A DNA stretch of 64,000 nucleotides from Candidatus Rokuibacteriota bacterium (GTDB lineage: Bacteria; Methylomirabilota; Methylomirabilia; Rokubacteriales; CSP1-6): assembly GCA_003220495.1 (NCBI GenBank), contig QHSP01000027.1:1-64000 (forward strand), given 5' to 3'. Below the pieces are notes generated by a model. It saw nothing but the letters and a program-made list of their open reading frames with translations. It did not search any database and had not been told where the DNA came from. Made by a program: the position numbers and the translations under genes. Below, one piece after another: positions 37,872 through 47,820 of the stretch. The stretch's first letter is position 1; each line of letters opens with the position of its first letter.

Positions 37872-38705
37872 ATGGGAACGTCCGTGACCGAATCGATCCC
37901 GCCGCATCCCGTCCTGGAGGAGTACTACCCGGTCCAGGCCGCCCGGCAGTCGTTCGTCGGTGAGCTGTTCGACGGCGCCGCCCGGTATTACAACCACATC
38001 GGCCGGATGCTGGACCTGGGCTCCGGGCCCATGTACCGCCGCCAGGCGCTCCAGCGGGCCGGTCTCAAGCGCGGGATGCGTCTGCTGGACGTCGCGACCG
38101 GCACCGGCCTGGTCGCGCGTGGGGCGGCGGAGGTTCTCGGCGATCCCCGCCGGGTTGTCGGCGTTGATCCAAGTAGCGGCATGCTGCGCGAGGCGCGGAT
38201 GGCCCTCACCGGCCCCCTGGTGCGGGGAAGGGCCGAAATCCTCCCGTTCCGGTCGGACAGCTTCGACATGCTCAGCATGGGCTTCGCCCTGCGCCACGTG
38301 GAAGATCTCGAGATCGCATTCGACGAATACCGACGCGTCCTCAAGCCCGGCGGGCGCCTTCTCCTGCTCGAGGTGTCGCGCCCGTCGTCGCGGATCTTGC
38401 GGTGGCTGATCCGGACCCACTTCCAGCGCATCTTGCCGCTGCTGACCCGCATCAGCACCGGAAGCGAATGGGCGGAGCTCCTCATGAAGTACTACTGGGA
38501 CACGATCGACCGGTGCGTCCCGCCCGAGACGATTCTCGACGTGCTGCGGCGCAACGGATTCGTGGACGTGAAGCGGCGGGTGTACTGCGGCTTCCTCAGC
38601 GAATACGTCGCGGCTCGCGGGGCTGGGGCCCCACCGGCCGAGGCGCGCCTACAAATGAATCACCGGATCGCGAGCTCCGCCGGGTCGATGCCGCGCAATC
38701 CGTAG
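37872..38705 (+). CDS. Class I SAM-dependent methyltransferase (UbiE-like)
   Basis: 277 aa from ATG 37872, with no clear ribosome-binding site and a putative -10 just upstream. Motif I is LLDVATGTGLVARGA, then VGVDPSSGMLREA, FDMLSMGFALRHVED and LKPGGRLLLLEVSRP, which is the ubiquinone/menaquinone methyltransferase-like pattern. The true quinone role is unproven. The last about 30 residues (AARGAGAPPAEARLQ and on) are encoded by a REP-like element and beyond, and the stop overlaps the convergent flavoprotein gene by 46 bp. Confidence 0.88.
   Translation: MGTSVTESIPPHPVLEEYYPVQAARQSFVGELFDGAARYYNHIGRMLDLGSGPMYRRQALQRAGLKRGMRLLDVATGTGLVARGAAEVLGDPRRVVGVDPSSGMLREARMALTGPLVRGRAEILPFRSDSFDMLSMGFALRHVEDLEIAFDEYRRVLKPGGRLLLLEVSRPSSRILRWLIRTHFQRILPLLTRISTGSEWAELLMKYYWDTIDRCVPPETILDVLRRNGFVDVKRRVYCGFLSEYVAARGAGAPPAEARLQMNHRIASSAGSMPRNP
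38610..38654. repeat. REP-like element copy R3 inside a coding 3' end
   Basis: A copy of the same element (GCGGGGCTGGGGCCCC, then ACCGGCCGAGGCGCGCCTA) within the 3' end of the methyltransferase ORF. One base differs in the hairpin's 3' arm. It supplies the protein's C-terminal tail. Confidence 0.8.
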
Positions 38706-39988
38706 CGGCCCAGGAAACGCAGGAGGCCTCGGCTATAGCGTGACGTCGTCGCCGCGCCGCTGGCCAGAAGCCCCACGTGTCGCGCGATATGCGTCTGGAT
38801 CGCTCGCTTGGCGAACCCCGGATTCTCCGGCATCCAGGACCGCCCGGCCTGGATCAACGCGGCCAGCCTTCCGTCGTACAGATAGGCGACCAGCTCGAGC
38901 CACGCCGTGAGCATCTCGCTCTGCGTCGCGGCGTACGAGCTCAACACGGAGTGGAGCTCCGCCGGTGACGGGATCGCGCGGCGACGCAGCCACGGCGTGA
39001 GAGCGTCCGCGAGCTGCTCGGACGAGCGGAGCGCCAGGAAGACTCCCGGCGACAGCATCGGGTCGACGAAGCCGAACGCGTCGCCGATCATCACCCAGCC
39101 GGGCCCATAGCCGCGCTCGGAGATCAGCTGGTAGTTGGCGTAGGTGGCGACGTCCGTGACTCGCCGCCCGCGGCCGACGATGGACGTGAGCCCGGGATCG
39201 ATCGCGATCGCGCGCTCGAGCCGCTCCTCGGGCGTGCGTCCGAGCCGAGCCGCATCGTCCTGGCCCAGGACGATGCCGATCGAGAGTCGCTCCTGGAGCG
39301 GGATGCACCAGCTCCAGCCCGCCTCACCGCGCGCGATCCGCACCTGTCCCGGCGTCTCGTCCCAGCTGACGCCCTCGAAGTGGGCGAAGTGCGCGACGTC
39401 CTTCCGGGGCCCGAGGCGCGGCGGAATTCCGAGCGCGCGGGCCGCGAGGCGCGCGCGCCCGGTGGCGTCGACGACGAGATCGGGCGGCTGTCCGCCGAGC
39501 CCAGGCGCCGCGGCGACGGTCTCGGGACCGAGCTGCAGCTCTGCGCCCGTACCGGCCGCGGGATTCGGCACGAGCTGCGCGCGCGCGGTCACGTAGTCGA
39601 CGCCCGAGGCGATCGCCTTGGCGAGCAACGTGTCGTCGAACTGCGGTCGCGGAACGTTGTAGGCGTACGGAAACACGGCGGGCGCGAAGCGGTCGAAGGT
39701 GACGCTCACGCGGTCCGTCGAAGACCAGATGAACGAGACGCCGGGCTTGATGCGGCTGAAGCTCGCCGTTTCCTTTTCCAGGTCGAGCCGTCGGAGGATC
39801 GGGACCACCGCCGGAACCAGCGACTCACCGACGAGCAGCTCGGGACGGCGCCCGTCGTCGACGAGCGTCACGGCGGCGCCCTCACGGGCCAGCAGGATCG
39901 CCAGGGTCGATCCGGAGGGCCCGGCCCCGATGATCGCGACCCGCAGGCGCCGCGCCGGCCCGACGCTCTCGTTCACACCGCGCTCCAT
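38660..39988 (-). CDS. Flavin-dependent halogenase/monooxygenase-like protein
   Basis: 442 aa from ATG 39988; GTG 39976, coupled as GTGA to the upstream stop with GGAG 6 nt before it, is equally likely. The FAD motif is GAGPSGS (21-27) and the GD motif is VMIGDAFGFVDP. The halogenase hallmark WxWxIP is present as W215-S-W-C-I-P220. K81 in RIKPGVSFIW lies where flavin halogenases keep their catalytic Lys. It could halogenate, epoxidise or reduce a substrate. It is encoded together with a condensation-like acyltransferase and overlaps the convergent methyltransferase ORF. Confidence 0.85.
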   Translation of the reverse strand: MERGVNESVGPARRLRVAIIGAGPSGSTLAILLAREGAAVTLVDDGRRPELLVGESLVPAVVPILRRLDLEKETASFSRIKPGVSFIWSSTDRVSVTFDRFAPAVFPYAYNVPRPQFDDTLLAKAIASGVDYVTARAQLVPNPAAGTGAELQLGPETVAAAPGLGGQPPDLVVDATGRARLAARALGIPPRLGPRKDVAHFAHFEGVSWDETPGQVRIARGEAGWSWCIPLQERLSIGIVLGQDDAARLGRTPEERLERAIAIDPGLTSIVGRGRRVTDVATYANYQLISERGYGPGWVMIGDAFGFVDPMLSPGVFLALRSSEQLADALTPWLRRRAIPSPAELHSVLSSYAATQSEMLTAWLELVAYLYDGRLAALIQAGRSWMPENPGFAKRAIQTHIARHVGLLASGAATTSRYSRGLLRFLGRYGLRGIDPAELAIR

Positions 39989-41295
39989 CCCATTCCTTCG
40001 CGAATGACCTCGATGATCCTCGCCGACTCGGGCTCGGTCACGACGCCCTCGATCCACGACACGACGAGGTTGTTCCGCCCTCCGCACCGATTGAAGAATA
40101 CGCCGATTCCCGGCCGCGGGGGAACGACCGGCACGTGGTAGGCGTTCACGACCTTGCGTCCGAAGCACTCCGCGAGCGCGTTCGGCCAGTCCCCGAGGTC
40201 GGCGCAGTTGAAGGAGAAGAGCTCTCCGCCGGTCGTCCACGGCAGGACGCGGAGCATCCGGGAGAGCGGCTGATACTGCAGGAACTCCAGGGCGACGTGG
40301 TTGGCCTCGATCTGTCCGTCGCGGACGGCGTCGGCCATTTGACGACGCAGCGCCCGCGCCAGCGCGGGCACGTCCGCGGTATCGGACGACCGGAATCGCG
40401 CGAAGTGGAACGCGAGGTGGTTCCCGAAGGTCGCGCCGAGCTCTCCCTTGGGGCGCATGTCGACTGAGATCGGCAGCAGGCACGGCACGTCGGCGAGGTC
40501 TCGGCGGCGCCAGAGCTCGGTCATCGCCTTGCCGACCAGCGCGACCCGCCAGCAGATCTCGCGGGTGGTGCGCTGATCGCTCGAGTCCGGCGCGATGAAG
40601 CCTTGCCGCTTGAAGCACGCGCGGCCCGGCGGCACCGGCTGATGACCGGCCGAGACCGGCGGCACGGGCGCGAGCGTCCGCAAATACTTCAGGCTGCCGC
40701 CGGCGATCCGGCTTCGCTGGACGAGCGAGCGCCGGTCCCGATCGGACACGAACGCGGGTGGAGTGTCGCCCCAGGGCATCGTGCCCTCGTGGCGGTCGAG
40801 GTCGTTGAGGTGCGTCAGGAGATTCTCTCCGCCCCGAGCGTCCATCAGCGGGTGGAACCACGTCAGCACCAGGACGCTCGACGGGGTCGGCCGCGTGGAC
40901 GCGTCGTGGACGACGAGCATGCGCAGCGGCGCCTCGCGACGCGGCTCGACGGCGCGATTCAGCTCGGTCGCGAGCTCTCGCTGAAGCTGCTCGCGCGCCG
41001 TGATGGTCACCCGGCGCGCCGTCGGGCGCGCCAGACTCTCGCGTGCTCCGGCGGCCCAGTGCAGCTTGCCCCACGGGAACGGACGCCTGAGCCGGGCCGC
41101 GGGCCAGGGACACACGTCGAGAAACCGATCCCACGCGCGCGCGATGCGGTCCGACTCGATCGGCCCGTCGCACTCGACGACGAGCAGGGTGTTGTGTCCG
41201 AGCCCGACGCCCTTCCATCGAGGATGGTGCGCGAGCAGCACGAGATCCGCCCCGCGCAGGGGCAGTCGGCGCACGTCTCGCTTCAGCGCGGGCAC
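39973..41295 (-). CDS. Condensation-domain-like acyltransferase
   Basis: 440 aa from GTG 41295 (GGAAGAA upstream). The protein resembles the chloramphenicol-acetyltransferase/condensation/wax-ester-synthase superfamily. The N-half core reads LTWFHPLMDARGGENLL, with H138-x3-D142 matching the second half of the HHxxxDG motif. The C-half has PISVDMRPKGELGATFGNH, analogous to the DFGWG-region floor loop. The first His is replaced by Phe, as in some members. It overlaps the halogenase-like gene by up to 16 nt. The substrate is unknown; ester or amide formation is inferred. Confidence 0.75.
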   Translation of the reverse strand: MPALKRDVRRLPLRGADLVLLAHHPRWKGVGLGHNTLLVVECDGPIESDRIARAWDRFLDVCPWPAARLRRPFPWGKLHWAAGARESLARPTARRVTITAREQLQRELATELNRAVEPRREAPLRMLVVHDASTRPTPSSVLVLTWFHPLMDARGGENLLTHLNDLDRHEGTMPWGDTPPAFVSDRDRRSLVQRSRIAGGSLKYLRTLAPVPPVSAGHQPVPPGRACFKRQGFIAPDSSDQRTTREICWRVALVGKAMTELWRRRDLADVPCLLPISVDMRPKGELGATFGNHLAFHFARFRSSDTADVPALARALRRQMADAVRDGQIEANHVALEFLQYQPLSRMLRVLPWTTGGELFSFNCADLGDWPNALAECFGRKVVNAYHVPVVPPRPGIGVFFNRCGGRNNLVVSWIEGVVTEPESARIIEVIREGMGWSAV

Positions 41296-41429
41296 GAGAA
41301 TTCTTCCAGCTGACGGTCTCCGATTTCGAGGTGCGCCTCGGCCAGGACTCTGACCCGCCTTGCAGATCATGTCAAGGGATCCGGCCTGGCTGGTACACTC
41401 ACGGCGATCCGTCCAACAAGGAGCGGGCG

Positions 41430-42428
41430 ATGGGGGACGTGGGTCTCATGGGCATGCACGTGCCGGGCATGTCGTGGCGTGAGATGCGCGAGGCGGCCGT
41501 GCTGGCCGAGGAGCTCGGCTACAGCTGCATCACGATGGGGGAGTCGTGGGGCGAAGACGCGCTGACGTCGCTGGCGCAGCTCGCGGCGGTGACCTCGCGC
41601 ATCCGCATCGGGACCAGCATCGTGCCGGTCTTCGCGCGCTCGCCCGCGAATCTCGCGATGTCGGCATTGAACATGGACCGCATGAGCGGCGGGCGGTTCT
41701 TCCTGGGCCTTGGCACCAGCGGCCGCCTGGTGATCGAGGACTTCCACGGCGAGAAGTTCGCCAAGCCGCTGACGCGCATGCGCGAATACATCGACATCGT
41801 CCGGAAGGCCGCGCGAGGCGAGCGACTCGATCACGACGGCGAGTTCTTCCACACCAAGCGCTTCCAGCTGCGGTTCACGCCGCAGCGGGCGAGCCTGCCG
41901 ATCTACATCGCCGCGCTCAGCCCGCCGAGTCTCAGGCTCACCGGCGAGCTCGCCGACGGATGGCTGCCGATCTTTCTGGCGCCGTCGCGCATGGCGGCGG
42001 CCAGGGTCGAGCTCGAGGCCGGCGCCGCCGCGGCCGGCCGGACCCTTCGAGACATCGCGATCTCGCCGCAGGTGTCGATCTATGTGACCGACGACGTCGC
42101 GGCGGCCCGCGATCGCGAGCGGCCGCACATCGCCTTCTACATCGGCGGCATGGGTGTGTTCTATCACCAGTACATGCGCCGCATCGGCTTCGGCGCCGAG
42201 GCCGACCGCGTGCGCGAAGCCTTCCAGGCGCGGGAGCGCGACCGGGCCGCGAAGCTGGTCAGCGACGAGATGGTCGACGCGATGACGATCGTCGGCTCGC
42301 CTAAGCAGTGTCGGGATCAGATCCAGCGGTTCTTCGACGCGGGCGTCCAGGAAGTCAGGCTCGTCTTCAACGAGCCGAACAAAGACGCGTACGTGAAGGC
42401 GCTGCGGGCGGTCGCTCCCCGGGGGTAG
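41430..42428 (+). CDS. LLM-class flavin-dependent oxidoreductase (F420-like group)
   Basis: 332 aa from ATG 41430 (AAGGAG 6 nt upstream). Barrel segments are RIRIGTSIVPVFARSPANLAM, SGGRFFLGLGTSG and LPIYIAALSPPSLRLTGELA. This resembles the F420-dependent Mer/methylene-tetrahydromethanopterin-reductase-like branch more than the FMN luciferases, but cofactor choice is uncertain. It is divergent from the acyltransferase/halogenase-like pair across about 130 bp. Confidence 0.91.
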   Translation: MGDVGLMGMHVPGMSWREMREAAVLAEELGYSCITMGESWGEDALTSLAQLAAVTSRIRIGTSIVPVFARSPANLAMSALNMDRMSGGRFFLGLGTSGRLVIEDFHGEKFAKPLTRMREYIDIVRKAARGERLDHDGEFFHTKRFQLRFTPQRASLPIYIAALSPPSLRLTGELADGWLPIFLAPSRMAAARVELEAGAAAAGRTLRDIAISPQVSIYVTDDVAAARDRERPHIAFYIGGMGVFYHQYMRRIGFGAEADRVREAFQARERDRAAKLVSDEMVDAMTIVGSPKQCRDQIQRFFDAGVQEVRLVFNEPNKDAYVKALRAVAPRG

Positions 42429-42512: not shown

Positions 42513-43301
42513 GCGTCCACGCGGAACGATGACTCGGGTTCATCGGGTCCCGCGCCACTCGACGACGAGGCCAGAGAGCTGTCGAGCGACCAGGGGTTTC
42601 TTCGATCCGAAGAAATGCGCCCGATCGCCGAGCGTCTGCGCCGAGCGCTCGAGCAGGGCGGGGTGCCTCAGGTCCTGAGGCTGAGCTTGAACCACGTGGC
42701 CTCGCCGTGGATCGAGTTCGGCAGCGTGACGTTCTTCCGCCGCCGGCTGGACCGGGGACCGGAAGTTCCCCGGCCCCGCCACGGGCTTTCGGTGCTCCAG
42801 GCCTCGCTCGACGACATCTCGCTGGTGCTCCAGGTGTCCGATCCGCGCCGGACGGCCGAGATCGTGAGAGAGAGACTTGGCCGTGGAGATCTCTGCTTTC
42901 TGGCCCTCGATGCGGCCGGTCTCCCGATCCACTCGGGCTGGGCGACGATGCTGGGCGCGCACGTCCCGGAGCTCGCGCGCGACGTCGTCTTGAGGAGGCG
43001 CGAGGCGTACCTGTACGATGCCTTCACGCCTCCCTCGCGACGCGGTCACGGAGCCTTCGGTTTCGTCCTCGATCATCTCTTCGCCAAGCTCCAGGCGCTC
43101 CGCGCGCGGGTGGTGTATTCGTACGTTCGCAGCGACGACCCGAAGGGCCAGCGATCCGCCTGTGTGCGACTTCGCCCGGTGGGGACGCTGGCTCACGTCC
43201 GGCTGAACGGTCGAGCGCCGCTGATCTTCGGCAGGCGGGGCAACGAGCTGCCGACCTTCGTCAGGCACCTCGTCGACGACGACGGCCGATCACTCCGGTG
43301 A
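42507..43301 (+). CDS. GNAT-like acetyltransferase (tentative)
   Basis: 264 aa from ATG 42507; a later ATG at 42615 is possible. The C-terminal half resembles a GNAT fold: ALDAAGLPIHSGWATML, then YDAFTPPSRRGHGAFGFVLDHLFAKLQ, where RRGHGAFGF fits the acetyl-CoA P-loop (R/QxxGxG/A). The N-terminal half is not recognised. No transfer substrate can be proposed. It stands alone between an LLM gene and a convergent hydrolase gene, overlapping the latter's 3' end by 12 bp. Confidence 0.7.
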   Translation: MLASTRNDDSGSSGPAPLDDEARELSSDQGFLRSEEMRPIAERLRRALEQGGVPQVLRLSLNHVASPWIEFGSVTFFRRRLDRGPEVPRPRHGLSVLQASLDDISLVLQVSDPRRTAEIVRERLGRGDLCFLALDAAGLPIHSGWATMLGAHVPELARDVVLRRREAYLYDAFTPPSRRGHGAFGFVLDHLFAKLQALRARVVYSYVRSDDPKGQRSACVRLRPVGTLAHVRLNGRAPLIFGRRGNELPTFVRHLVDDDGRSLR

Positions 43302-44102
43302 GTGCTCTCGGCGACGGGCCCGCGCTCCCGACACGCTGACGGCGAGGAAGCTCCGGATCAGCTCGGCGATCTGCGGCGCGGCCTCGTCGAGAGCGAAGTG
43401 GCCCGCGTCGAGCAGATGAACCTCCGCCTCCGGCAGGTCTTCGCCATAGGCGACGGCTCCGGCCACGGTGAACGACGGGTCGTGTTTGCCCCACACCACG
43501 AGCGTCGGCGGTTGGACGTCGCGCAGGTACGCCTGCCACTTCGGATACGACGCGACATTGGTTCGATAGTCGTGAAAGAGATCGAGCTGGATGTCGATCA
43601 TGCCGGGGCGGGTCAGCAGCGCGTACTCGCCCTCCCACGTTTCGGGATCGATTCGCTCGGGGTGCGGGCTGCGACCGACGTGTCGTTGCCGTGTGGCCTC
43701 GAGCGACAATAGATTCGCGCGCACGGCGGCCTCGTGCGCCGCCCGGTCGGCCCAGAAAGCCTTGCGCGAGACCCACAGATCCGAGAGCCCCTGCTCGTGC
43801 GCGACGGCGTTCTGGATGACCAGCGCCTGCACCCGCTCGGGGTGGGCGAGCGCCAGGCGGAACCCGATCGGGCCGCCGTAGTCTTGCAGGTACAGGCTGT
43901 AGTCGACGACCCGCTGCAGCTCCAGGAATCGATCGACGATCTCGGTGAGGTGATCGAACGTGTATCGGAACGCCTGCGGCGCGGGCGCGTCGCTGCGTCC
44001 GAAGCCCGGGTAATCGGGTGCGATCAGACGGAATCGGTCCGCCAGGCGCGGGATGAGGTCGCGGAACATGACCGATGACGACGGGAACCCGTGCAGTAGC
44101 AC
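43290..44102 (-). CDS. Alpha/beta hydrolase, apparently missing its N-terminus
   Basis: 270 aa of an epoxide-hydrolase/haloalkane-dehalogenase-like protein. Its only possible start, GTG 44102, encodes the V of VLLHGFPSSS, which is normally about residue 30 of the fold. The frame continues upstream for 7 sensible residues (CQRNPTL) and then meets a TGA. The oxyanion HGFPSS, YLQDYGGPIGFR nucleophile elbow (Asp) and DAGHFALDE histidine are intact. Loss of strands beta1-beta2 should impair folding. A degenerate REP-like copy lies about 100 bp upstream. Confidence 0.75.
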   Translation of the reverse strand: MLLHGFPSSSVMFRDLIPRLADRFRLIAPDYPGFGRSDAPAPQAFRYTFDHLTEIVDRFLELQRVVDYSLYLQDYGGPIGFRLALAHPERVQALVIQNAVAHEQGLSDLWVSRKAFWADRAAHEAAVRANLLSLEATRQRHVGRSPHPERIDPETWEGEYALLTRPGMIDIQLDLFHDYRTNVASYPKWQAYLRDVQPPTLVVWGKHDPSFTVAGAVAYGEDLPEAEVHLLDAGHFALDEAAPQIAELIRSFLAVSVSGARARRREHSPE

Positions 44103-45419: not shown

Positions 45420-45447
45420 GACGCACGTCACTCCTTCACTCACACAC

Positions 45448-45789
45448 ATGATTTTTCCCCAGAACGTCAGCCCGCGGCGCGCCGCGGAAGTCCTCCGTCG
45501 CATCTTCGACCGTGTGCCGGGCGGCTTTGCCTTCCGTCTTTGGGACGGCTCCGTCGTGACTCTCGGCGCCGGCACGCCGGTGTGTACCGCCGTCGTGCAC
45601 CAGCCGCAGACCTTCCTCAGGCTCATTCGCGATCCGACGCCGCTCAACTTCGCCGAGGCCTATGTCGACGGCTCCATCGACCTCGAAGGCGATCTGTTCG
45701 AAGCCATGAGCGTCGCGAACTCGATCGAAGAGATCCGCGTGCCCTTCGTGGAGCGGCTGCGCGTCCTCTGGACTCTCTGGCGAGGCTGA
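45448..45789 (+). CDS. Stand-alone N-terminal domain of cyclopropane-fatty-acid synthase (DUF7884-like)
   Basis: 113 aa from ATG 45448. The sequence matches the N-terminal domain normally fused to CFA synthases: FAFRLWDGSVVTLG, then FLRLIRDPTPLNFAEAYVDG and SIDLEGDLFEAM. In typical enzymes the methyltransferase follows in the same chain. Here the ORF ends with a stop and the methyltransferase is encoded separately after a flavoprotein gene. In E. coli Cfa this domain helps bring the enzyme to lipid bilayers, so the free domain may act in trans. It is preceded by a riboswitch-like leader. Confidence 0.85.
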   Translation: MIFPQNVSPRRAAEVLRRIFDRVPGGFAFRLWDGSVVTLGAGTPVCTAVVHQPQTFLRLIRDPTPLNFAEAYVDGSIDLEGDLFEAMSVANSIEEIRVPFVERLRVLWTLWRG

Positions 45790-45790
45790 C

Positions 45791-46918
45791 GTGGCCCAGC
45801 ACGACGTGATCGTGGTCGGCGGCGGTCCGGGCGGAAGCACCGCGGCGTGGCGGCTCGCGCGGGCGGGCCTTCGGCCGCTCCTGCTCGACGCTGCGGTCTT
45901 TCCGCGGGTGAAAATCTGTGCCGGCTGGGTCACTCCCGAGGCGCTGGCTGACGCCCAGGTCGATCCTCAGAAATATCCACTGACGATCCAGGCCTTCTCG
46001 GCGTGCCGGTTCGAGTTCGACGGCGCGCGCACCGAGACGCGCTGGCGACGACCCGCCAGCTACGGCATCCTCCGACGGGAATTCGACCACTATCTGCTCG
46101 ACCGCGCGCGCGCCGCCGGCGCGGATGTTCGCGAAGGTGCGCGGGTGACCGCGGTGACGCACGAAGCGGACGGGATCCGTGTCGTGAGCCCGCGCGGCAC
46201 GTTCACGGCCCCCGTCGTCATCGGCGCCGGCGGCCACCGATGCCCGGTGGCCCAGGCGCTCGGCGAGGTCTCCGGGCGGGAAGAGGTCGTGATCGCGCAG
46301 GAGAGCGAGACGCGACTTGCGCCGGAGTGGGTCGAGGCGCTCGGCAAGTGGTGGGAGGCCCCGGAGCTCTACGTCGAGCCGGACCTCAAGGGTTACGGGT
46401 GGTACTTCCCCAAGGGCGACGTCCTCAACGTCGGAGTCGGCTGCGTCTCGGGGCCCGGTGCCGACCTGCCGCGCCGGCGAGACGCGCTCGTGAGCGCGCT
46501 GCGCGCCGCGGGTCGGCTGCCGGCCGCGCTCCCCATCGAGCCCTTCCGCGGCCACGCCTACGTCGTGCGCCGCCGGGCGCCGCGGAAGCTCGCCGGTGAT
46601 CGGTTCTGCCTCGTCGGCGACGCGGCCGGGCTCGCGCGCGACCTCAGCGGCGAAGGAATCGGGCCGGCCATCAAGAGCGGGATCCTCGCCGCCGAGGCGG
46701 TCGAGGCGCGCCTGCGCCGGGGCGCTGGCCTCGAGGGGTACGCGGCCGCGATCGTGCGCCGGTACGGATCGGGCGAGACCGGCTGGCTCGGCCGGCAGCT
46801 CGCACGAATCCCCGATGCGTGGGCGCGCGTCTTCGTGCGCGCCATCCTGAACACGGAAGCCACGAGGCGGCACGTGGTATTCGGGCGCATCTTCGGCATG
46901 CGGGAGGTGGCGTCGTGA
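45791..46918 (+). CDS. Geranylgeranyl-reductase-family FAD-dependent oxidoreductase
   Basis: 375 aa from GTG 45791, 1 nt after the preceding stop. The FAD Rossmann motif is VVGGGPGGSTAAWRLARAG, followed by the family's PRVKICAGW (normally PRxKxCGG) and RREFDHYLLDRA. The GD motif is FCLVGDAAGLARDLSGEGIG. GGR-family enzymes reduce C=C bonds of isoprenoids or lipids. Between the two halves of a CFA synthase, it may reduce a methylene-fatty-acid intermediate to a methyl branch, which is inference. The next gene starts as GTGA overlap. Confidence 0.88.
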   Translation: MAQHDVIVVGGGPGGSTAAWRLARAGLRPLLLDAAVFPRVKICAGWVTPEALADAQVDPQKYPLTIQAFSACRFEFDGARTETRWRRPASYGILRREFDHYLLDRARAAGADVREGARVTAVTHEADGIRVVSPRGTFTAPVVIGAGGHRCPVAQALGEVSGREEVVIAQESETRLAPEWVEALGKWWEAPELYVEPDLKGYGWYFPKGDVLNVGVGCVSGPGADLPRRRDALVSALRAAGRLPAALPIEPFRGHAYVVRRRAPRKLAGDRFCLVGDAAGLARDLSGEGIGPAIKSGILAAEAVEARLRRGAGLEGYAAAIVRRYGSGETGWLGRQLARIPDAWARVFVRAILNTEATRRHVVFGRIFGMREVAS

Positions 46919-47820
46919 GGCCACGCAGCAAGGAGGCGGACGCGAAGGCCATCGCCCATCATTACGACGTGTCCAACGAGTTCTACGCGCTGTTCCTCGA
47001 CCCGCTGATGGTCTACACCTGCGCGTACTATCGCGACCCCGACGGCAAGCTCGAGCAGGCCCAGCGGGACAAGCTCGATCTGGTCTGCCGCAAGCTCGAG
47101 CTCGAGGCCGGCGAGACCTTGCTCGACATCGGGTGCGGCTGGGGCAGCCTGTCGATCTGGGCGGCGCAGCACTACGGCGTGCGCGCCCACGGCGTGACCT
47201 TGTCGAAGGCGCAGGCCGACTACGCGACCGAGCGCATCCGCCGGGAAGGGCTCGAGGGGCGCTGCACGGTCGAGTACCGCGACTATCGTGACCTGCCCCC
47301 GGACGCCCGCTTCGACAAGATCGCCGCGGTCGGCGTGATCGAGCACGTCGGGATTCCGAACTATCCGGCGTTCTTCGGCGGCGTGCGCCGGAGGCTGAGG
47401 GACGGCGGCCTCTATCTGAACCACGGGATCGTCCACGAGTTCCACTGGAAGGCGACGAGCCAGATCGAGTTCCTCTATCGACACGTGTTTCCGAACGGCG
47501 ACCTTGCGGGGCTCAGCGAGACGCTGACCGAGATCGAGCGCGCGGGCTTCGAGATCATGGACGTCGAGGGGCTCCGGCTGCACTACGCGCGGACCTGCCG
47601 TCACTGGGTCGAGCGCCTGCGCGAGCGGGCCGACGAGGCCCGCGCGCTGGCCGGCGAGCGCACGTATCGGACCTGGCTCCTCTACCTGACGTGCTCCGCC
47701 GTCGCGTTCACCGAGAGCTCGATCGGGCTCTACCAGGTCCTGACGCGCAAGCAGCACGATCCCGTCGCGAGCCGTGCGCCTCACACGCGCGAGCACCTGT
47801 ACGGTAAGGCATTCCTGTGA
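46915..47820 (+). CDS. Cyclopropane-fatty-acid-synthase-type methyltransferase (catalytic domain only)
   Basis: 301 aa from GTG 46915, overlapping the flavoprotein stop. It begins directly at the catalytic domain: IAHHYDVSNEFYALFLDP, the classic CFA-synthase YDVSN motif. SAM motif I is LLDIGCGWGSLSIWAA, followed by GVTLSKAQADYA and VGVIEHVG. The usual N-terminal about 100 residues are missing and are supplied by the ORF at 45448. Such enzymes transfer a methyl group from SAM to an olefinic phospholipid acyl chain, giving cyclopropane, methyl-branched or methylene products. Confidence 0.9.
   Translation: MRPRSKEADAKAIAHHYDVSNEFYALFLDPLMVYTCAYYRDPDGKLEQAQRDKLDLVCRKLELEAGETLLDIGCGWGSLSIWAAQHYGVRAHGVTLSKAQADYATERIRREGLEGRCTVEYRDYRDLPPDARFDKIAAVGVIEHVGIPNYPAFFGGVRRRLRDGGLYLNHGIVHEFHWKATSQIEFLYRHVFPNGDLAGLSETLTEIERAGFEIMDVEGLRLHYARTCRHWVERLRERADEARALAGERTYRTWLLYLTCSAVAFTESSIGLYQVLTRKQHDPVASRAPHTREHLYGKAFL

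Follow-up and report, generated by a model that had tools for sequence, protein, structure and literature searches.

A 64,000-nucleotide stretch of contig QHSP01000027.1 from a Candidatus Rokuibacteriota bacterium (assembly GCA_003220495.1), referred to here as the window, encodes a halogenase-type flavoprotein (FP) and, in a gene sharing a 16-nt overlap with that of FP, an acyltransferase-like protein (AT). The question raised by this locus is whether the two enzymes work on their own or belong to a larger pathway. The original prediction described a carrier-free two-enzyme module with no nonribosomal peptide synthetase (NRPS) or carrier protein nearby. The latter point was borne out, as whole-genome profile searches found no PP-binding, Condensation or AMP-binding domains on the window contig (C38). 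The module itself was not upheld: the pair is paralogous to two members of a cassette containing an acyl carrier protein (ACP) and a ligase, and pair and cassette show a complementary split in sister genomes. The coupling of a halogenase-type flavoprotein to a condensation-superfamily acyltransferase stood, whereas its stand-alone character did not. We conclude that the pair is most likely a variant of carrier-dependent halogenase-type tailoring with an unusual split.

The ACP cassette and the window-type pair

A search of 99 relatives showed that the genome of the window (G000) carries two AT/FP copies. The second copy was located on contig C60 (locus L041) in the order ACP–AT–flavin adenine dinucleotide (FAD) oxidoreductase (FADox, PF12831)–AMP ligase–FP, and its AT and FP were 60% and about 70% identical to those of the window, respectively. 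This order recurred in 13 Rokuibacteriota genomes, with some loci ending at contig edges. Across 84,980 species genomes, an AT profile hit 15 loci in Rokuibacteriota and a single, distant one in Methylobacter; the scan was pattern-based and missed more divergent relatives that were found later. Matches of FADox to solved structures were limited to the FAD-binding stretch. No substrate was called from the ligase sequence, the nearest solved ligases being mixed (malonyl-, feruloyl-, fatty acyl-, coumaroyl- and salicylate-type). Genes for a Rieske oxygenase, an acyl-CoA-dehydrogenase-like protein and a TauD-family dioxygenase were observed beside the cassette ACP (L041 8349-11725 and sister loci) and were kept within the genus only.

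The window type, consisting only of AT, FP and a methyltransferase gene (MT), was found in seven genomes of the genus (G000, G001, G002, G003, G006, G007 and G008). The UbiE-type MT was convergent to FP in 7/7 window-type loci and in most cassette loci, and in the window it overlaps the 3' end of FP by 46 nt. The window-type copies formed one clade in the trees of FP, MT and AT (100/100, 100/99 and 73/100, respectively). When Methylobacter-side proteins served as the outgroup, the FP tree resolved the window-type (95/89) and cassette-type (82/83) proteins as sister groups, so the duplication of AT and FP appears to be old.

The cassette ACP was present in 9/9 genomes of the genus, including 7/7 with the window-type pair, in which it was at least 74% identical to the G006 copy. 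In genomes G001, G005 and G008, ACP directly abutted FADox with no AT between them. The ligase was followed by a methyltransferase gene within 26 nt in G008 and by another gene in G005, FP being absent in both cases. The G001 contig stopped inside FADox, leaving the cassette FP position beyond the contig, and a second FP was not found in that genome. AT and FP occurred in G001 and G008 only as the window-type pair. The two halves, a cassette without AT and FP and a window-type pair, are therefore complementary in sister genomes. That the two non-adjacent genes missing from the cassette sit together elsewhere as sole copies is the chief reason to propose that the window pair works with ACP in trans. 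The genomes were metagenome-assembled genome (MAG) assemblies, and the structure models described below were moderate. The window-type FP of G008 was split into two frames (L059 9843-11100), which reflects either a sequencing error or real decay.

Among 200 Methylobacter-related genomes, eleven FP matches covering most of the protein were found at 37-43% identity. At the ten Methylobacter-side loci examined, with simple gene calling, FP lay beside ACP–AT–FADox–ligase, and the five-gene cassette was complete where contigs and gene calls allowed (L117, L119, L120, L121 and L124). The AT families of the two sides matched by profile (hhalign E 3e-36), the FPs of both sides formed a 100/100 clade, and the ACP and AT genes were adjacent in both phyla. 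Several Methylobacter-side cassettes sat in clusters of the aryl-polyene type with ketosynthases, an ApeP-like dehydratase, a reductase and an MMPL exporter. A link of this cassette to tundrenone was considered and set aside, the gene context looking aryl-polyene-like instead. The aryl-polyene-type clusters L117, L118, L120, L124 and L127 also encoded another halogenase-like flavoprotein, with 26-28% identity to FP; it kept GES, a Lys and W.W.IP and had no match to the FxxPxxSxG pattern used.

Methylobacter and two related genomes carried a different, more distant AT in the order AT–adenylation (A) domain–acyl-CoA dehydrogenase, with ACP ahead where it was called (L076, L127 and L128), and this Methylobacter AT matched the window AT family with a profile E of 5e-14. 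Because the Methylobacter AT adjoins an ACP, an A domain and a dehydrogenase, this class of AT recurs beside acyl systems with free-standing carriers. These sets (L076 7495-11620, L127 7162-11586 and L128 4311-8247) were observed near aryl-polyene-type genes, and the L076 dehydrogenase best matched the PigA (prodigiosin) and L-prolyl-carrier dehydrogenase models, under their cut-offs. They possibly make a carrier-bound pyrrole-2-carboxyl unit.

The flavoprotein, its halide site and the acyltransferase

Table 1. Features of the AT–FP–MT locus (window coordinates)
Feature	Position	Strand	Remarks
FP, halogenase-type FAD flavoprotein, 442 aa	38660..39988	-	Trp_halogenase (Pfam PF04820) 9e-23; best PDB match 8zop (FasV); alignment A1
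K81 codon (FP)	39746..39748	-	aligned with flavin-halogenase catalytic Lys; invariant in A1 and A3
WSWCIP, FP residues 225-230	39299..39316	-	W-W-IP invariant in A1 and A3
FVDPMLSPG, FP residues 307-315, FxxPxxSxG type, with Pro314 at halide-binding NH position	39044..39070	-	
AT, condensation-superfamily acyltransferase-like, 465 aa open frame	39973..41370	-	alternative GTG start at 41295
HPLMD, AT residues 173-177, HxxxD of HHxxxDG	40840..40854	-	invariant in A2
MT, UbiE-type methyltransferase, convergent to FP	37872..38705	+	Pfam Ubie_methyltran 3e-28

The family alignment A1 comprised 18 Rokuibacteriota members of FP, and K81, GES, W.W.IP and FxDPxLSPG were invariant across them. FP also contains the FAD motif GxGxxG as GAGPSG (residues 21-26). 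FP and K81 were found where they had been placed before, while the WxWxIP motif, assigned earlier to residues 215-220, is real and lies ten residues further on (Table 1). K81 has the context 'SRIKPGVSF', and CmlS, Bmp2 and FasV each had a Lys aligned to it in a comparison of PDB sequences; in the AlphaFold (AF2) model, residues 75-114 around it had a predicted local distance difference test (pLDDT) score <50, which makes this part of the model unreliable. The nearest solved relatives by sequence were FasV, CmlS, Bmp2, CndH, RadH, Mpy16, PltA and ChlB4, and Foldseek agreed. FasV was the top match by sequence (3e-40) and by fold (E 2e-24, 29% identity). The best NCBIfam match was the monooxygenase QhpG with 125 bits, under the cut-off of 240. 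A geranylgeranyl reductase identity was rejected, TIGR02032 giving 77 bits vs a cut-off of 158.8, which agrees with the earlier assignment. FP belongs to the halogenase-type flavoproteins by both sequence and fold. A literature search for Rokubacteria and halogenase found no report.

The canonical halide site is built from the backbone NH groups of two SxG residues, x and G, and its relevance is disputed (PMC7336383). In 18/18 Rokuibacteriota FPs, both paralogues alike, x was Pro314, so one of the two halide-binding NH groups is gone and the canonical pair was absent from these sequences. The corresponding triplets were SQG in CmlS, SSG in PltA and CndH, and STG in FasV. The Methylobacter-side cassette orthologues had SSG, and 24 other relatives had S, T, A or G at the Pro314 position, with Pro in 0/24. 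Since Pro314 lies in the halide site, halogenation by FP is not to be assumed and, judged by the sequence of this site, we do not class FP as a halogenase. K81 was rejected as proof of halogenation, as a Lys in that region also occurred in other widespread halogenase-like relatives inspected; it does not discriminate halogenases because the 24 relatives keep one as well. Halogenation is the obvious, yet unproven, reading of FP.

For AT, the predicted overlap with FP was correct, and the predicted boundary at 41295 corresponds to an internal GTG, a possible start, in a frame that is open to 41370. Conserved sequence begins near residue 34 in A2, the family alignment with 17 AT orthologues. The HPLMD motif noted in the original prediction was invariant in 17/17. 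Compared with HHxxxDG, the motif FHPLMDA keeps the second His and the Asp, while the first His is Phe and the Gly is replaced; the Methylobacter-side orthologues mostly have HHxLMDA. Searches of Pfam, NCBIfam and PDB with the AT sequence returned zero matches, and the sequence profiles of the Rokuibacteriota and Methylobacter-side groups had no significant match in PDB. Condensation (PF00668) matched neither the window AT nor any other protein of its genome, and one Methylobacter-side orthologue matched it weakly (6e-4, under the curated cut-off). The AF2 model of AT was of moderate quality (pLDDT 67, predicted template modelling score 0.75) and matched AzeD in Foldseek with E 4e-15 and TM 0.63-0.67, and also NRPS condensation/heterocyclisation (C/Cy) domains and PapA5. 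As predicted, and as judged from this model, the fold of AT places it in the condensation superfamily, and by profile it falls outside Pfam Condensation.

Proposed pathway and competing explanations

AT and FP, together with the convergent MT, are probably a duplicated and split-off part of an ACP pathway that draws on the C60 ACP in trans. The content and conservation of the cassette, the paralogy, the complementary split, the motifs and the AT fold class are observations, whereas the chemical steps of the pathway, its substrate and the use of ACP in trans are inferred. In the parent cassette, the AMP ligase would load a carboxylic acid onto the dedicated small ACP, and the PF12831 flavoprotein FADox would oxidise the ACP-bound acid. 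FP, with reduced flavin and oxygen, would then oxidise the acyl group on the carrier, either halogenating or hydroxylating it. AT would use acyl-S-ACP as donor, with H173 as general base, to form an ester or amide with an alcohol or amine acceptor, and MT may complete the product by methylation. The window pair, without an ACP of its own, would draw on that of G000:C60. Such a pathway is consistent with the closest relatives of FP, which include the carrier-dependent halogenases Bmp2, PltA and Mpy16 (PMC8407142).

Several observations weigh against it. The cassette ACP lies on a different contig from the window pair, and four cassettes have no FADox (G002, G004, G006 and G048). G005 keeps ACP–FADox–ligase while AT and FP were not found; there the activation half may serve another use, or the assembly may be incomplete. 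In AT, the first His of HHxxxDG is missing, and the protein scores below all sequence models. The nearest solved relatives of the AMP ligase are CoA ligases, so an acyl-CoA route is possible.

If the two enzymes instead formed a self-sufficient module on free or CoA substrates, as the original prediction held, the lack of carrier, ligase and NRPS domains in the window would be explained, and some condensation-fold enzymes (PapA5, WES) use non-carrier substrates. That both genes have paralogues in an ACP cassette, together with the complementary split and the neighbouring positions of ACP and AT in both phyla, makes this improbable. It is very improbable that the window pair has lost its function and represents a paralogue in decay: the FP copy of G008 is interrupted in the MAG and one TGA occurs within the G002 AT reading, but six FP copies in a clade with strong support have intact frames and keep the active-site motifs, and the window-type AT is the sole AT found in G001 and G008.

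Two further explanations concern the reaction of FP within the favoured ACP-dependent pathway. FP could be a true chlorinase or brominase of variant B acting on a carrier-bound acyl group, with a halogenated product. This is quite possible, although we would not call it probable: FP has GxGxxG, WxWxIP, FxxPxxSxG and the Lys, each of them invariant, the nearest solved relatives are halogenases and the Methylobacter-side orthologues retain SSG, but Pro314 removes a halide-site NH in every Rokuibacteriota member, the Lys is not discriminating and the top NCBIfam match, below cut-off, is a monooxygenase. That same match, together with a lineage-specific SSG/SPG difference fixed in both paralogues, would favour a switch in which the Rokuibacteriota FP, once a halogenase, became a monooxygenase (hydroxylase or epoxidase) acting on acyl-S-ACP, and QhpG shows that a hydroxylase is possible in this fold (PMC7876137). 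Against such a switch, WxWxIP, proposed as a block on monooxygenation (PMC8407142), is intact in FP, what the NH pair does is a matter of dispute (PMC7336383) and the HMM scores were far under their cut-offs, which leaves it conceivable but on balance doubtful. The full combination is rather unlikely as a whole: an undescribed ACP-dependent pathway of Rokuibacteriota in which the enzymes for oxidation and transfer were duplicated and moved away from carrier and ligase, and in which the halogenase-type enzyme, with its invariant Pro in the halide site, was switched to another oxygen transfer on a carrier-bound acyl group.

Neighbouring genes and comparison with known systems

Divergent from AT, an LLM-class (luciferase-like) oxidoreductase is encoded at 41430-42428 (+), and its protein cluster adjoins AT in four more window-type loci (L054, L055, L056 and L058). 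About 2 kb from AT, at 43290-44102 (-), lies an alpha/beta hydrolase whose top NCBIfam matches were haloalkane dehalogenases (94 vs cut-off 265 bits). The LLM oxidoreductases, the alpha/beta hydrolase and the amidase nearby were rejected as pathway members, since beyond the genus the cassette core lacks them. Further along, 45421-47820 (+) encodes a DUF7884 protein (CFA-synthase N-terminal-type), a geranylgeranyl-reductase family flavoprotein (45791-46918; TIGR02032 182 bits, passing the cut-off) and a cyclopropane synthase (CMAS). This looks like a split fatty-acid-modifying set with the reductase in between.

The results give an orphan-looking gene pair a testable biosynthetic logic, and they indicate that enzymes of carrier-dependent tailoring can be dispersed over a genome and escape mining that relies on gene clusters. 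The SSG and SPG orthologues offer a natural experiment on the contribution of the halide site in flavin halogenases. The cassette is apparently undescribed and is common to uncultured soil Rokuibacteriota and Methylobacter-related bacteria.

Some methanotroph-related aryl-polyene clusters hold the orthologous five-gene cassette beside an ApeP-like dehydratase, ketosynthases and an MMPL exporter, whereas neither the window pair nor the C60 cassette was seen with any of these genes nearby. AT shares its fold and HxxxD with the superfamily of NRPS condensation domains, PapA5 and AzeD, but it has no Pfam Condensation match, has Phe for the first His of HHxxxDG and, in the cassette, is a stand-alone protein next to a free ACP. 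QhpG, a peptidyl-Trp dihydroxylase that acts on a crosslinked protein substrate (PMC7876137), has a halogenase-like fold as FP does, but FP scores below the QhpG cut-off. FasV, described in PDB as a halogenase, is the best match of FP but has STG where FP has SPG. The variant B systems of PltA, Mpy16, Bmp2 and CndH, with their ligase or A domain, carrier protein and dehydrogenase partners, resemble the parent cassette, in which an acid-activating ligase and a free-standing ACP occur with a flavin oxidoreductase and with FP as the halogenase-type flavoprotein, and their halogenases share motifs and fold with FP. In contrast to these systems, the cassette has no proline-type A domain or acyl-CoA dehydrogenase and adds a condensation-type enzyme, FP carries SPG at the halide site, and the window pair stands apart from the ligase and ACP.

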